NCBI GenBank assembly: GCA_025774865.1 | Contig: JALGZO010000586.1 | Location: 1-5,571, forward strand | Direction of reading: 5' to 3' | DNA: 5,571 nt | Source of the DNA: a bacterium | GTDB taxonomy: Bacteria > ARS69 | Translations under genes and position numbers: made by a program | Notes under the pieces: generated by a model | The model's input: only the letters and a program-made list of their open reading frames with translations | Database searches by the model: none | What the model was told of the DNA's origin: nothing | Shown: in pieces, positions 1 through 5,571 of the stretch | Position numbering within the stretch: position 1 is the first letter of the stretch | Layout of the letters: each line of letters starts with the position of its first letter

Positions 1-512
1 GTCCCGTTCTCGCCCGTGATGAGCACGCGCGCTTCCGCATGGGCTGCGCGCTCCAGGGCGTCTCGGAGCCGCTTCATGGCCGCACTCGATCCGAGGAGTC
101 CGTCGCCGGGTGCGATCGCGCGGGACAGCTCACGATTGCGCCGTCGGAGCGAACTCGTCTCCAGCGCATTGCGCACCGCGACCAGCAATCGCCCCGGGTC
201 CAGCGGTTTCTCGAGGTAGTCGAACGCGCCGAGCTTCGTCGCCCGCACCGCGGTCTCGATCGTCGCGTGGCCCGACATGACGATCGCGGGAACTTCACTG
301 CCGCCGTCGCGGATCTTCGCGAGTAACTCGAGACCGTCCATCCCGGGGAGGCAGACGTCGAGGAGGACGAGGTTCGGCGCCTCCTCTTGGAGGAGCTCGA
401 CGCCGCGCTCGGCGCTCTCGGCTGTGAACGTGCGATAGCCCTCATCCGCCAAGAGCCCGGAGAGCTGGGTGCGGATGTTCTTCTCGTCGTCGATGATCAG
501 AATCTGGCGCAC
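1..512 (-). CDS. NtrX-like sigma-54-dependent response regulator (partial, C-terminus outside window)
   Basis: This is the N-terminal 170 residues of a response regulator that would activate sigma-54 promoters when phosphorylated by the kinase two genes upstream. A complete receiver domain is visible at about residues 3-120: acidic pair D8/D9, phospho-acceptor D52 in LLDVCLPGMDG, S80 in the MSGHA motif, and K102 in DYLEKPLD. A linker follows, then the start of the AAA+ domain (GSSAAMKRLR, then LITGENGT). The chain is cut inside Walker A at the window edge. GENGT in Walker A and DYLEKPLDPGRLL are typical of NtrX rather than NtrC. The start is GTG at 512-510, one base after the TGA (516-514) of the preceding gene. 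No clear Shine-Dalgarno is seen, so translation is probably coupled. The remaining AAA+ region and the expected Fis-type DNA-binding helix cannot be checked. The receiver and AAA+ assignment is secure; the NtrX label is a family-level inference. Confidence 0.93.
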   Translation of the reverse strand, partial: MRQILIIDDEKNIRTQLSGLLADEGYRTFTAESAERGVELLQEEAPNLVLLDVCLPGMDGLELLAKIRDGGSEVPAIVMSGHATIETAVRATKLGAFDYLEKPLDPGRLLVAVRNALETSSLRRRNRELSRAIAPGDGLLGSSAAMKRLRDALERAAHAEARVLITGENG

Positions 513-513
513 G

Positions 514-1347
514 TCAAGGGGCCGGCGTTCGGCAGTTCGGGTTCACGACGAGCACGTCGGAGAACGACTCCTCCGTGAGACGTCGCAGGTACAGAGCACG
601 CTTGCTCGGAAACGTCGCGAGCACCTCGCGAGAGAGGTACTTCGTCTCCAGCTCCGCGAGGTCGCCGAGAAACGTGGGGTCCTTGGCGCGCTTTCCGGTG
701 CGGTCCTCCCAGGTCAAGAGCTCGAGGTAGACGAGCTCCGGCAGCTCCTCGATGCCGTAGATCCGGCGTTGCCAGCGGGCCAGGTTGCCCGCGTTGTCGA
801 AGCGCTGGTAGAGCCGCTGCATCGCGCCGACGTCCAGCGAGTGCTTCGGAGAGTGGCTGAGCGGGTACGAGTCGAGCCGAATCGCTTCCGCCAGGACGTC
901 CACCCCTTCCGGCCAACTGCTCTGACCCAGCGTGCGGTAGAGGACGCGGTAGCGGTCGTTCTCGCCGAGGTAGAGCGCGTGCGGCGACGACGGATCGATG
1001 TCGGACACTTTCATACGACCTTCCCAGCCGGTCGGCAGCAACCAGAGCTTGTAGAACGGATGGTAGGTGAAATCCTCCTCCGGATGATGGAACCCGATGG
1101 AGCCGTCCTCGACGCGGATCAACACGGCGTCGGCCGCCCCCGTCCAGCCGAAGGGAACCGTTTCCCAGCGGATCTCGGCGATGGTCCAGCCGCGCGGCAG
1201 CGACTCGCGAATCGCGACCAGGGCGCTCGACACCTTGACGGCGTCCAGGGGGAGCGACCCGCAGGGGTTGGTCGCCCCGGCGTTCGCCACCGACCCGGCC
1301 AGGGTCGCGGCCGCCACGGCGTTGAGCAGGGTGCGAGGGTGTCTCAA
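514..1347 (-). CDS. Unrecognised secreted protein between kinase and regulator (277 aa)
   Basis: I do not recognise this family. The likely start is TTG at 1347-1345, overlapping the kinase stop as TTGA, with an AGGAG Shine-Dalgarno at 1357-1353. From there the N-terminus reads as a signal peptide: R2/H3/R5, a hydrophobic stretch at about residues 6-20, and an A-N-A cleavage motif at 21-23. The predicted mature chain starts near G24 and has only two cysteines, C29 and C272, which could form a disulfide tying the two ends together. The middle is rich in aromatics and His (for example FHHPEEDFTYHPFYKLW near residues 87-101). The C-terminal half looks helical and charged. No transmembrane segment is seen after the signal peptide. 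Its place between a sensor kinase and its regulator, in overlapping frames, suggests an envelope role linked to that signalling system; this is inference. The frame is open further upstream, but that part overlaps the kinase gene and is not credible coding. Confidence 0.8.
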   Translation of the reverse strand: MRHPRTLLNAVAAATLAGSVANAGATNPCGSLPLDAVKVSSALVAIRESLPRGWTIAEIRWETVPFGWTGAADAVLIRVEDGSIGFHHPEEDFTYHPFYKLWLLPTGWEGRMKVSDIDPSSPHALYLGENDRYRVLYRTLGQSSWPEGVDVLAEAIRLDSYPLSHSPKHSLDVGAMQRLYQRFDNAGNLARWQRRIYGIEELPELVYLELLTWEDRTGKRAKDPTFLGDLAELETKYLSREVLATFPSKRALYLRRLTEESFSDVLVVNPNCRTPAP

Positions 1348-2867
1348 CGGCTCTCCTCGGGCTCCACGGGAAGGTCCAGCACGAAGTGGGCGCCTCGGTC
1401 CGTGCTTGTCCACTTTAGCGTACCTCGGTGGTCTGTCGCGATCCGATGCACCATGGCGAGCCCGAGGCCCGATCCGCCGGTCTTGCCGCTGATCCCGGGC
1501 TCCAGGATGGAATCGCGGATCTTGTCGGGGATTCCGGGACCCTCGTCGGACACTCCGAGGGTCGCCCGTCCGGCGCCTTCGGTCACTTCGAGCCGGATCG
1601 TCCCACCGTTCTCCATCACCTCGGAGGCGTTCTTGACGAGATTCGTCACGGCCCGACGGATCTGATCGCGATCGGCCACGAGCGGCACCGAATCGGGACC
1701 CTCGTACACGAGATCGATCCCCGCCTTCGCTCCCTGGAAGAGCTCCCGCACGCTCTTGACGATCTTGGCGAGGTCGGTCGGCTCGAATCGCGGGGCGGGC
1801 ATCTTCGCGAAGTCGGAGAACGATTCCGAGATGCGGGCGAGATTGTCGACCTCCTCCCCGATCGAGCGAAGACACTCCTGGGCGTCGGAGTCCGGCGGAA
1901 CGCGCCCGCCGAGCCGGTGGATGGCGAGCTTGATCGGGGTGAGGGGGTTGCGCACCTCGTGGGCGATGCGGCGAGCGACGTCGCGCCACGCGGCGACCCG
2001 TTCCACCCGGATCAGCTCGTCGCGGGACCGCTCCAGGCGTTCCCCCATGCGGTTGAACGCGCGCACGAGATCCCCGATCTCTCCTTCGGCCCGGACGTCG
2101 GCTCGCTGTGACAAGTCACCCGCCGCGATCCGGTCGGCCGCGCCCGCGAGCTCGACGACCGGTCGGCTGATGCGCCGGGCCGTGACGCGCGCGGCGAGGT
2201 ACGCCACCGTCGCCGCGAGCAGAAAGATCCCGACCGACGAGATCCAGAACCATCGCATCCGGACCTGTTCGAAGATCTTGAGCTGCTGGTAGAAGCCGTA
2301 CTCTTCGCCCGCCGAGACGAGCGCGACCGCGAGCTCCGGCTCGAGCACGACGCCGATGGCGCGGGCCGCTTCACCGTCGCTCGCCGCCCGAAAGAAGCGC
2401 AGCGTTCTCCCGCGGCGCGTCTCCGGATCCTCGTCTCCGGCGAGCTTGTTCCACTCGGCGCTCGAGGGAATCTCCACGTCCTCGAAGGATGCGCCGGTGG
2501 CGGTGATGACCCGGGTGCCTTCCGCCGTTTCGTAGGCCGCGAAGTCGAAGTTGGTCTCCGCCAAGAGATCCTTCGCCAGCGCCTCTTCGTCGGCCGGCGG
2601 AGGGGCGGCCGGCAGCCACTCGAGCACGAGCTCGGCGTCCGATCGGAGGTGATCGACCAGCTCGCCGTAGAGGGTCGCAGCGTGATCGAACGACGCCTCC
2701 ACCCCCGGGTTCTGAAGGCTCGTGATCGCCCCCGAGAGTCGGCCCGTGGCGATGATCGTCACCAGGAGCGAAGGCACCGAGGCGAGGAGGAGGAAGCTCA
2801 CGAGGAGCCGGGTCTCGAGCTTGCGGGACTTCAGGGTGACGCCTGCCTCTCCGGGGGATCGGGCCAC
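1344..2867 (-). CDS. NtrY-like membrane sensor histidine kinase (507 aa)
   Basis: This is an inner-membrane kinase that would sense an envelope signal and phosphorylate the response regulator encoded at 1-512. The order is: membrane segment at about 21-40, extracytoplasmic domain at about 41-205, second membrane segment at about 207-227, HAMP at about 228-281, HisKA with phospho-acceptor H303 in IAHEVRNPLTPIKLAIHRL, then the ATPase domain. The ATPase domain shows an N box (NLVKNASE, N409 and N413), G1 box DEGPGIPD (441-448) and G2 box GGSGLGLAM (464-472). The AWRDVARRIAHEVRNPLTPIKL segment is typical of NtrY kinases. It is shorter than usual NtrY because no PAS domain sits between HAMP and HisKA. 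The F box reads ILEPGISGK, with Ile where Phe is common. The start is GTG at 2867-2865, the first start after an upstream in-frame TGA, but it lacks a good Shine-Dalgarno; initiation a few codons later is possible. The stop overlaps the next gene. Confidence 0.93.
   Translation of the reverse strand: MARSPGEAGVTLKSRKLETRLLVSFLLLASVPSLLVTIIATGRLSGAITSLQNPGVEASFDHAATLYGELVDHLRSDAELVLEWLPAAPPPADEEALAKDLLAETNFDFAAYETAEGTRVITATGASFEDVEIPSSAEWNKLAGDEDPETRRGRTLRFFRAASDGEAARAIGVVLEPELAVALVSAGEEYGFYQQLKIFEQVRMRWFWISSVGIFLLAATVAYLAARVTARRISRPVVELAGAADRIAAGDLSQRADVRAEGEIGDLVRAFNRMGERLERSRDELIRVERVAAWRDVARRIAHEVRNPLTPIKLAIHRLGGRVPPDSDAQECLRSIGEEVDNLARISESFSDFAKMPAPRFEPTDLAKIVKSVRELFQGAKAGIDLVYEGPDSVPLVADRDQIRRAVTNLVKNASEVMENGGTIRLEVTEGAGRATLGVSDEGPGIPDKIRDSILEPGISGKTGGSGLGLAMVHRIATDHRGTLKWTSTDRGAHFVLDLPVEPEESR
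1353..1357 (-). promoter_or_regulatory. Shine-Dalgarno supporting a TTG start
   Basis: AGGAG lies 5 bases before the TTG at 1347-1345, inside the last codons of the kinase gene. It is the main reason for choosing this non-ATG start, together with the signal peptide that begins exactly there. Confidence 0.6.
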
Positions 2868-3011: not shown

Positions 3012-4085
3012 ATGCGAGTCGCGTCGTGGATGGTCGAGTCCACCGGACAGCCGATGACGCTACAGGACCGCGAGGACGTCCCGAAGGCGGGCGAGGTTCT
3101 CGTCGAGGTCCGCGGGTGCGGCGTCTGTCACACGGATCTGGGCTTTTACTACGAGGGCATTCCGACCCGTCATCCGATGCCGCTGACACTCGGGCACGAG
3201 GTGGCGGGCCAGGTGATCGAGGCAGGACCGGGCGCCGAAGAGTGGGTCGGCCGCGCGGTCGTCATCCCCGCCGTGATTCCCTGCGAGACCTGCGACGCCT
3301 GCACGTCCGGGCATGGTTCCGTCTGTCCGAATCAGATCTTCCCGGGCAACGACGTGCACGGCGGCTTCGGCTCGCATCTCACCGTGCCCGCGCGCGGACT
3401 CTGTCGCGTTCCCGATCTCGACGATCCGCTGCAAAACGCCGACCGGCTCGAGCTCGCCGATCTCTCCGTGATCGCGGACGCCATCTCGACGCCCTACCAG
3501 GCGATCGCCCGGAGCGGATTGCAGGCGGGCGATCTCGCGATCTTCGTGGGCGTGGGCGGCGTGGGCGGCTTCGGGGTGCAGATCGCGGCGTCGCTCGGCG
3601 CCCATGTGGTCGCCATCGATGTCGATCCGGATCGGCTCGACCTGATATCGCGCTACGGAGCGTCGCTGGCACTGCGATCCGACGACATGTCGTTCAAGGA
3701 ACTCCGCGCCGCCGTCCGCAGTTTCGCGGGCGAGAGACAAGTCCCGTCCTGGCGCCATGCGATCTTCGAGACGTCCGGCTCGGCGTCCGGACAGGCGACG
3801 GCGTTCGGCCTCGTCGGCCACGGCGCCCATCTCTCGATCGTCGGCTTCACTCCGGCCAAAGTCGAAGTCCGGCTGTCCAACCTCATGGCGTTCGATGCCA
3901 CCGCGCAGGGCAACTGGGGATGTCTGCCCGAGCACTATCCGAAGGTGCTCGAGCTCGTGCTCTCCGGCGCCGTGGCGGTACGACCCTTCGTCGAGCGCCG
4001 TCCTCTCGACACCATCAACGAGACCTTCTCGGATCTGCACGAGCACCGCGTGTCCCAGCGGGTCATCCTCGTTCCGGAGTCATGA
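3012..4085 (+). CDS. had: 6-hydroxycyclohex-1-ene-1-carbonyl-CoA dehydrogenase
   Basis: This is a cytoplasmic zinc-type medium-chain dehydrogenase (357 aa) that oxidises 6-hydroxycyclohex-1-ene-1-carbonyl-CoA with NAD+ to the 6-oxo compound in benzoyl-CoA degradation; Geobacter calls it bamQ. The GroES-like N-terminal domain carries the catalytic zinc ligand C39 (GCGVCHTD) and the GHE motif (H62, E63). Four structural-zinc cysteines follow: C91, C94, C97 and C105. The Rossmann fold has GVGGVG at 180-185 and D203 at the end of the second strand, which favours NAD+ over NADP+. Several stretches match the Had subfamily as I know it rather than generic alcohol dehydrogenases: PAVIPC (86-91), PGND followed by GGF (111-119), TPYQA, RLSNLMAF, GNWGC, and PFVERRPLD near the C-terminus. 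Length is close to the usual 360 or so. The stop overlaps the oah start as ATGA. Function is confident from family resemblance and from the two neighbours; substrate specificity itself is inferred. Confidence 0.93.
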   Translation: MRVASWMVESTGQPMTLQDREDVPKAGEVLVEVRGCGVCHTDLGFYYEGIPTRHPMPLTLGHEVAGQVIEAGPGAEEWVGRAVVIPAVIPCETCDACTSGHGSVCPNQIFPGNDVHGGFGSHLTVPARGLCRVPDLDDPLQNADRLELADLSVIADAISTPYQAIARSGLQAGDLAIFVGVGGVGGFGVQIAASLGAHVVAIDVDPDRLDLISRYGASLALRSDDMSFKELRAAVRSFAGERQVPSWRHAIFETSGSASGQATAFGLVGHGAHLSIVGFTPAKVEVRLSNLMAFDATAQGNWGCLPEHYPKVLELVLSGAVAVRPFVERRPLDTINETFSDLHEHRVSQRVILVPES

Positions 4086-5197
4086 TGATGGATATGAAGA
4101 ATCACGACCTGGTCGACGACCACCGACGCCCGGGCGTCCTCTACGACGAGACTCCGCTCCGCGACGACAGCGGCGAGACCGTGGAAGGTCTCCATGTCGT
4201 TCACATCACTCTCGACAATCCGAGCCAGCTGAACTCCTACACCACCGACATGATCAAAGGCGTGATCCTCGGGATGCGAAGGGCGTCGACCGATCGGGGC
4301 TGTGTCGCCGTGGTCTTCTCCGGCGGCGGGAACCGCGCATTCTGCACGGGCGGCAACACGGAGGAGTACGCCGAGTACTACGCGGGCCGTCCGCTGGAGT
4401 ACCGCCAGTACATGCGGCTGTTCAACGACATGGTCACGACGATCCTCCACTGCGACAAGCCGGTCATCTGCCGCGCTAACGGGATGCGCGTCGCGGGCGG
4501 ACAGGAGATCGGCATGGCCTGTGATTTCACGATCGCCCAGGACCTCGCGGTGTTCGGACAGGCCGGACCGAAGCACGGATCGGCCCCGGACGGAGGCAGC
4601 ACGGATTTCCTGCCGCTCTACGTCGGCATCGAGCGGGCGATGGAGAGTTGCACACTCTGCCGTCCGTGGAGCGCGCACAAGGCACAGCGTCTCGGGCTAC
4701 TGACCCGCGTCGTTCCCGGGCTCCGAGTCGGCGGCGAGTTCGTCCCGAACCCCCTCGTCATCACCGATCAGTGGCTCGACGAATGGGGCCGCGTCGTCCA
4801 TGGTGACTTCGTGACCGGCGACGCGAAGAAGGAAGCGAAGAAGCTGCTCGCGGGAGGTGAGGTGGACCTCTCGCTTCTCGACCGTGAAGTCGACGCGTTC
4901 ATCTACGCGCTCGCGATGACGATGCCCGAGTGCCTCACGAAGACGATCGAGAGCGTGCGCAAGCACAAGCTCGAGCACTGGGATCGGAATCGCGAGACGA
5001 ACCGGGCCTGGCTCGCCGGCAACATGATGACCGAGGGGCGCGCGGGGTTCCGCGCGTTCCACGAGGGCTCGAGGGAGTGTCGCGAGCCCGACTTCCTGTT
5101 GCTGCGTCGCCGGCTGGCGGAAGGTGAGACCTGGAACGACGCGCTCACGGAGGAGATTCTCGCGAAGGCGCACGGCCGCGTGGCGGTCCACCCGTGA
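4082..5197 (+). CDS. oah: 6-oxocyclohex-1-ene-1-carbonyl-CoA hydrolase (ring-opening)
   Basis: This crotonase-superfamily enzyme (371 aa; also called BamA, unrelated to the outer-membrane protein of that name) hydrates 6-oxocyclohex-1-ene-1-carbonyl-CoA and cleaves the ring C-C bond to give 3-hydroxypimelyl-CoA. It is widely used as a marker for anaerobic aromatic degraders. Family hallmarks are NSYTTDM (51-57), FCTGGNTEEYAEYYAGRP (87-104), CDKPVICRANGMRVAGGQE (124-142), GMACDFTIAQD (144-154), FGQAGPKHGS (158-167), GRVVHGDF (236-243), VDLSLLD (261-267) and AFHEGSRE (325-332). Length is near the usual 375 or so, and the long C-terminal part beyond a normal crotonase is present. The start at 4082 forms an ATGA overlap with had. 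ATG codons at 4085, 4088 and 4094 are also in frame, and GGAG at 4076-4079 is better spaced for 4085 or 4088, so the true N-terminus may be one to four residues shorter. The stop overlaps dch as GTGA. Confidence 0.95.
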   Translation: MMMDMKNHDLVDDHRRPGVLYDETPLRDDSGETVEGLHVVHITLDNPSQLNSYTTDMIKGVILGMRRASTDRGCVAVVFSGGGNRAFCTGGNTEEYAEYYAGRPLEYRQYMRLFNDMVTTILHCDKPVICRANGMRVAGGQEIGMACDFTIAQDLAVFGQAGPKHGSAPDGGSTDFLPLYVGIERAMESCTLCRPWSAHKAQRLGLLTRVVPGLRVGGEFVPNPLVITDQWLDEWGRVVHGDFVTGDAKKEAKKLLAGGEVDLSLLDREVDAFIYALAMTMPECLTKTIESVRKHKLEHWDRNRETNRAWLAGNMMTEGRAGFRAFHEGSRECREPDFLLLRRRLAEGETWNDALTEEILAKAHGRVAVHP

Positions 5198-5571
5198 GCG
5201 GCCGTGTGACCGACCGCGGTACGGTCCGCCGCGAGACGCTCGAGGACGGCAGCGTGTGGCGGGTCGTCCTCTCCGCGCCGAAGGCGAACATACTGGACGA
5301 AGAGATGATCCTCGCGCTCACGGATGTCTTCCAAGAGGCCGGCCGTACCGCGGACCTCAAAGCGATCGTGATCGAAGGAGAGGGCGCGCACTTCTCGTTC
5401 GGCGCGAGCGTGGAGGAGCACCTCCCCGCGACCGTCGGCCGCATGCTGTCCCATTTCCACGGGATGTTCCGCGCCCTGTTCGACTGCCAGATCTTCTGCG
5501 TCGCGGCGGTAAGGGGGCAGTGTCTCGGGGGCGGGCTCGAGCTCGCGTCGTTTTGTCACCGCGTCGTGGCG
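5194..5571 (+). CDS. dch: Cyclohexa-1,5-diene-1-carbonyl-CoA hydratase (partial, C-terminus outside window)
   Basis: These are the first 126 residues of a crotonase-type hydratase that adds water to cyclohexa-1,5-diene-1-carbonyl-CoA, the product of benzoyl-CoA reductase, giving 6-hydroxycyclohex-1-ene-1-carbonyl-CoA (bamR in Geobacter). The start is GTG at 5194, overlapping the oah stop as GTGA; no strong Shine-Dalgarno is seen, so translation is likely coupled. A second GTG at 5206 is possible. The N-terminal strand pair ends in PKANILDEEM (29-38). HFSFGASVEEHLP (66-78), at the first oxyanion-hole loop, is characteristic of dienoyl-CoA hydratases of this pathway. VRGQCLGGGLELA (106-118) supplies the second oxyanion-hole glycines and E116, which aligns with a catalytic glutamate of enoyl-CoA hydratase. 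The family is about 255 aa, so roughly half is present. A generic enoyl-CoA hydratase is the alternative, but FGASVEEHLP and the neighbours favour Dch. Confidence 0.88.
   Translation, partial: MSGRVTDRGTVRRETLEDGSVWRVVLSAPKANILDEEMILALTDVFQEAGRTADLKAIVIEGEGAHFSFGASVEEHLPATVGRMLSHFHGMFRALFDCQIFCVAAVRGQCLGGGLELASFCHRVVA

Follow-up and report, generated by a model that had tools for sequence, protein, structure and literature searches.

A candidate periplasmic partner of an Omp85-type barrel encoded between ntrY-like and ntrX genes

In the DNA studied here, a gene for an exported protein is inserted between the genes of an NtrY-like sensor kinase and an NtrX-type response regulator. An earlier note on this DNA had regarded the product of this orphan gene as an accessory protein of the kinase, which raises the question whether the protein serves the two-component system or another part of the cell envelope. 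The analysed stretch (hereafter the window) is one complete contig of 5,571 bp (G000:C590) belonging to a metagenome-assembled genome of 785 contigs.

The orphan gene, its product and its immediate neighbours

The open reading frame of the orphan, with a signal peptide predicted from sequence and hydropathy, was found between the kinase and regulator genes as claimed (Table 1). The tight spacing was confirmed as well. The TGA stop codon of the kinase gene (1346-1344) overlaps the TTG start codon of the orphan gene (1347-1345), forming the four-base sequence TTGA at 1347-1344, and one base separates the orphan stop codon, which ends at 514, from the GTG start codon of the regulator gene at 512. 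A second long open reading frame (398 aa) on the plus strand overlaps the orphan gene and, therefore, the length of the orphan frame alone does not prove coding. Judged by the GC content of its codon positions (0.65/0.47/0.88, the third position reaching 0.88) and by homologues in other phyla, the orphan is a real coding sequence. Its product shares 53% identity with homologues of the same phylum (approximately 50% for genomes G002 and G003) and about 30% with those of another phylum. The G002 orthologue begins at the equivalent place with ATG, which is preceded by a good Shine-Dalgarno sequence and overlaps ntrY by ATGA. For this reason, a downstream start that would remove the signal peptide is unlikely.

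Table 1. Positions of the orphan gene, its predicted parts and the adjacent genes within the window
Feature	Position	Strand	Details
NtrX-type sigma54 response regulator	3..512	minus	cut by contig end
Orphan exported protein, open reading frame	514..1347	minus	TTG start, 277 aa
C-terminal alpha/beta domain, about residues 170-270	538..840	minus	from homologue comparison and model
N-terminal domain, about residues 35-160	868..1245	minus	from homologue alignment; occurs alone in G369
Predicted signal peptide, residues 1-24	1276..1347	minus	RHPR n-region, hydrophobic core, ANA cleavage-like motif; by hydropathy
NtrY-like sensor kinase	1344..2867	minus	TM, extracytoplasmic domain, TM, HAMP, HisKA, HATPase; no PAS
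Shine-Dalgarno-like GAGGAG	1353..1358	minus	five bases 5' of the orphan TTG

The naming of the neighbours as NtrY and NtrX held for the regulator and in part for the kinase. In the kinase, the HAMP (229-279) and HisKA (294-357) domains are connected by a linker of 14 residues, which leaves no room for a PAS domain. Since all other NtrY domains are present, the protein is best called NtrY-like; it also keeps an HExRN motif. The regulator part within the window matches NF051870 over residues 1-170; owing to the truncation of the gene at the contig end, it does not reach the cut-off set for the whole protein. Its full-length orthologue in G002 comprises the receiver, sigma54 AAA and Fis-type HTH domains. 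A promoter-like box (TTGACA-N17-CTAGAG) seen by eye at about 2868-2895 on the minus strand, and also in L004, lies directly 5' of the ntrY GTG codon. As it nearly touches this codon, the true start of ntrY may be located further downstream. Divergent from ntrY, the plus strand (3012-5571) carries had, oah and a partial dch gene of the anaerobic benzoyl-CoA ring-opening pathway, of which had and oah pass the NCBIfam cut-offs (TIGR03201 and TIGR03200). These genes do not belong to the conserved cluster, as the three other genomes with this ntrY have an epimerase-like gene in the divergent position.

By its sequence the orphan protein is exported, and its location is presumably the periplasm. All six homologues whose N-termini were inspected possess an N-terminal hydrophobic stretch and, by hydropathy, no second membrane segment. 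Conserved residues of the N-terminal domain are P51, W54, P65, W68, G70, D81, Y95, W102, P105, W108, G110, LG128 and W145. Throughout the protein, invariant positions are occupied mainly by Trp, Pro, Gly and Tyr, and no catalytic set is evident. Searches against Pfam, NCBIfam, PHROGs and the PDB sequences gave chance-level matches only, in agreement with the earlier statement that no described family fits, and no relatives were detected in IMG/VR or among plasmids. By these comparisons the orphan is a member of an undescribed two-domain family. Two AlphaFold models calculated from two-sequence alignments were of low confidence (pLDDT 54 and 60); their secondary structure suggests an alpha/beta N-terminal domain followed by an alpha/beta C-terminal domain. 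With these models, neither Foldseek (E <= 0.001) nor VIA-align (Z >= 8) yielded a fold match. BamC, the N-terminal domain of RseB/MucB, a pilotin and ring-building/KH-like alpha/beta folds were listed below these cut-offs. Because of the low model confidence no fold is named here, and the missing match does not imply a new fold.

Homologues and their gene neighbourhoods

Homologues of the orphan were identified in 23 genomes at 24 loci. Out of five examined genomes of the window's candidate phylum (G000-G004), G002 (contig JALGZR010000036.1, isolate M3-44_Bin_119) and G003 contain a homologue, while its presence in G001 and G004 cannot be judged because ntrY is situated at contig ends there. 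Profile searches, which covered two largely overlapping samples of 386 genomes, revealed homologues only in two phyla and in a single genome of a third phylum, the more distant ones including those of G213 and G342 (second phylum) and of G369 (third phylum). Within the second phylum, a homologue occurs in 19 of 20 genomes (20 loci, with orphan identities of about 50-80% to G342), and within the third in one of five. A contig scan with strict motifs of the own phylum matched only the G002 record, a result which does not bound the family.

Profile matches with E values above 0.002 were treated as chance. One weak match of this kind (E 0.0088) concerned the N-terminus of a TamB-like protein in L054 (G001:C33), whose gene follows a TamA/Omp85-like gene; it is probably fortuitous. 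In G072, the genome of the second phylum without a match, a fragment of the Omp85 gene begins at a contig edge, at the site expected for the orphan, and a loss of both genes was thus dropped as an interpretation. The homologue of G369 (L063 7113-7604) consists of the N-terminal domain only (163 aa) and is encoded between panB and panC, as named by eye.

Within the window's phylum, the placement of the orphan between ntrY and ntrX is kept in the one other genome whose region is contiguous, G002, where the genes are arranged in the order ntrY-orphan-ntrX-CBM48-Omp85-DUF4390-TPR (CBM48-Omp85 being one gene). In the genome of the window, contig G000:C122 contains the C-terminus of an NtrX, which is followed by a CBM48-Omp85 gene. 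This NtrX part is 67% identical to the NtrX of G002 compared to about 53% for the paralogue, which makes the same gene order likely across the contig break. Thus, C122 probably continues the ntrX gene of the window, and the order would read ntrY-orphan-ntrX-Omp85. G003 harbors an intact orphan at the matching place beside epimerase and TPR genes; in this genome, rated 100% complete, NtrY, the CBM48-Omp85 orthologue and DUF4390 were not detected.

The loci of the second phylum revealed another arrangement. In all 20 of them, the order is RlmN-orphan-Omp85, the genes being on one strand and separated by short gaps; these loci share ancestry and do not count as independent. No NtrY orthologue was found in this phylum, the best match (E 8e-34) covering only HAMP and the catalytic core. 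Among the loci most similar to G342, those with a stretch that extends far enough have SppA after the Omp85 gene. The SppA (S49 peptidase) encoded in L062 (3300-5867) has about 280 additional N-terminal residues, which by eye resemble an outer-membrane barrel.

Altogether, the orphan is linked to Omp85 at 22 of the 24 loci. At two of these, both from the window's phylum, ntrX separates the two genes, and in one case the linkage spans the contig break. The orphan lies between ntrY and ntrX at two loci, while 22 are devoid of ntrYX. The expected linkage of the homologues to NtrY/NtrX-like pairs was therefore not borne out. According to these neighbourhoods, the neighbour conserved across both phyla is an outer-membrane barrel of the Omp85 superfamily, and the association with the kinase is peculiar to one lineage and does not represent the conserved context of the family.

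The Omp85 barrel as the probable partner

The Omp85 barrel domain (PF01103) was detected in the neighbouring genes of G002, G000:C122 and G342, and the barrel of the second phylum is homologous to the CBM48-Omp85 gene of G002 (E about 1e-30 for most loci). POTRA domains were not found in the orphan-linked Omp85 genes. The barrel of the second phylum has only a short N-terminal stretch without a detected domain, whereas that of the window's phylum carries a CBM48-like domain (CBM48/AMPK1_CBM) instead. In lacking a detected POTRA domain, the neighbour of the orphan resembles the 'noNterm'/non-POTRA subfamilies of Omp85 (Heinz and Lithgow 2014, PMC4104836), for which functions have still only been hypothesised; the main text of that survey does not mention CBM domains. 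A described soluble partner of this kind for a non-POTRA Omp85 protein was not found in the literature searched. The accessory factors of the Bam machinery are separate periplasmic partners, as the orphan would be, although no resemblance in sequence between the orphan and a known Bam factor was found.

Since the orphan persists without NtrY and accompanies Omp85, the best reading is that of a barrel partner which was drawn into the control of ntrYX. More precisely, it may share an operon with an Omp85-type barrel devoid of detected POTRA domains and serve as the periplasmic partner of this barrel, with a linkage to NtrYX in the lineage of the window; to this assignment we give about an even chance. 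In more general terms, the orphan is probably a protein of the cell envelope that became coupled to the signalling pair in this lineage. The barrel would be the long-standing partner, on whose periplasmic side the orphan most likely acts. It may, for instance, form a periplasmic module of its own, or it may be a factor or client in the assembly function of the barrel. As the lineage of the window interleaves this pair with ntrYX, joint production of the orphan, the barrel and NtrYX is probable, and the two-component system probably regulates or monitors this portion of the envelope. In Rhodobacter, genes of the cell envelope are known to be under NtrYX control (PMC7240162). The existence of the gene and its family, the gene order and the persistence of the orphan where NtrY is not found are established, whereas its periplasmic location, co-expression, contact with the barrel and any role in signalling are inferred; conserved gene order points to a functional relationship, which need not involve contact. 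Some data speak against a barrel partner. In G002 and the window, ntrX intervenes between the orphan and Omp85, and the short homologue of G369 resides between panB and panC. Furthermore, the occurrence of the orphan in G003, where no CBM48-Omp85 orthologue was found, indicates that its association with this particular barrel has exceptions.

Hence, an unnamed exported family has emerged that is encoded together with an Omp85-type barrel in two phyla which have been little studied; it provides a concrete candidate partner for barrels seemingly without POTRA domains. The wiring of the pair into ntrYX, together with other loci combining Omp85, DUF4390 and a sensor, makes a connection between NtrYX-type signalling and the biogenesis of the outer membrane accessible to testing.

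Third components of NtrYX and other readings

The original proposal, a dedicated third component, implies that the orphan binds the extracytoplasmic domain of the kinase and shifts its kinase/phosphatase balance. According to the account in PMC13001219, this mode of action has been proposed for PlrP on PlrS and for NtrZ on NtrY. PlrP, a DUF4390 protein, is the exported third component of the NtrYX-family system PlrSR of Bordetella and has genetic support (PMC13001219); such support for periplasmic third components of NtrYX is only recent. Like PlrP, the orphan is encoded beside an NtrY/NtrX pair, and its sequence predicts export. The plrP gene is situated 5' of ntrY though, while the orphan gene lies between ntrY and ntrX, and homologues of PlrP were reported to occur almost always beside plrS (PMC13001219), whereas most orphan homologues reside away from NtrYX. 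NtrZ of Caulobacter, a putative periplasmic protein acting on NtrY as cited in the same paper, is, compared by description only, similar to the orphan in its putative location and different in that its gene is located away from ntrYX. Apart from the PlrP precedent, the proposal is favored by the translational overlap with ntrY and the placement between ntrY and ntrX, both kept in the two genomes where the region is visible, and by the HExRN sequence of the kinase, which is of the type that was described for PlrS as a hallmark of bifunctional kinases. Nevertheless, it appears rather unlikely to us, since the great majority of the loci lie away from two-component genes and the orphan was retained in G003, where no NtrY was found, and in the second phylum, which has no NtrY orthologue. 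The orphan is moreover more conserved (53%) than the sensor domain of NtrY (35%) that it would bind. Finally, it is not a DUF4390 protein, and the separate DUF4390 gene in the G002 cluster is the better candidate for such a role.

Both functions might also be united, the orphan and Omp85 forming a sensing arm in the outer membrane that reports the state of the barrel or the envelope to NtrY. The G002 order, in which ntrY-orphan-ntrX precedes Omp85 and DUF4390, agrees with this idea, as do other sensor loci of the phylum with Omp85 and DUF4390 (G001:C570, G002:C215). The second phylum however possesses the orphan-Omp85 pair without NtrY, and G003 the orphan with neither NtrY nor this Omp85 found, which renders a sensing arm improbable. 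Its more specific version, an undescribed family that functions in trans as the periplasmic module of a POTRA-less Omp85 and also reports the state of the barrel to an NtrY-type kinase, is similarly doubtful; if true, there would be an outer-membrane-sensing NtrYX system made of parts unrelated to PlrP. Very little probability was assigned to mere regulatory convenience, in which case the orphan, as a secreted protein of generic type (envelope or binding protein), would be co-regulated with its neighbours and have no physical partner in these operons. The position of the short homologue in G369 and the retention in G003 without the usual partners are consistent with it, but the fixed order with Omp85 at every second-phylum locus argues against it. 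The barrel partner drawn into ntrYX control thus remains our preferred reading.

A relationship of the orphan to DUF4390 was considered and rejected, as hhalign of alignment A4 against five DUF4390 proteins gave a probability of 0.35% over 18 columns and a Pfam scan of 20 family members did not disclose this domain. Separate DUF4390 genes exist in some genomes of the window's phylum. A further system of the NtrYX type is encoded in L049 (G001:C570) and L047 (G000:C541). As in Bordetella, its DUF4390 gene is located 5' of ntrY, and the order in G001:C570 is Omp85-DUF4390-NtrY2. In G002:C215 (L053 4176-9753), genes for a PDZ-Omp85 and a DUF4390 protein are followed by that of an 862-aa membrane protein, which comprises HAMP, sigma54 AAA and Ser/Thr protein kinase domains and no HisKA.
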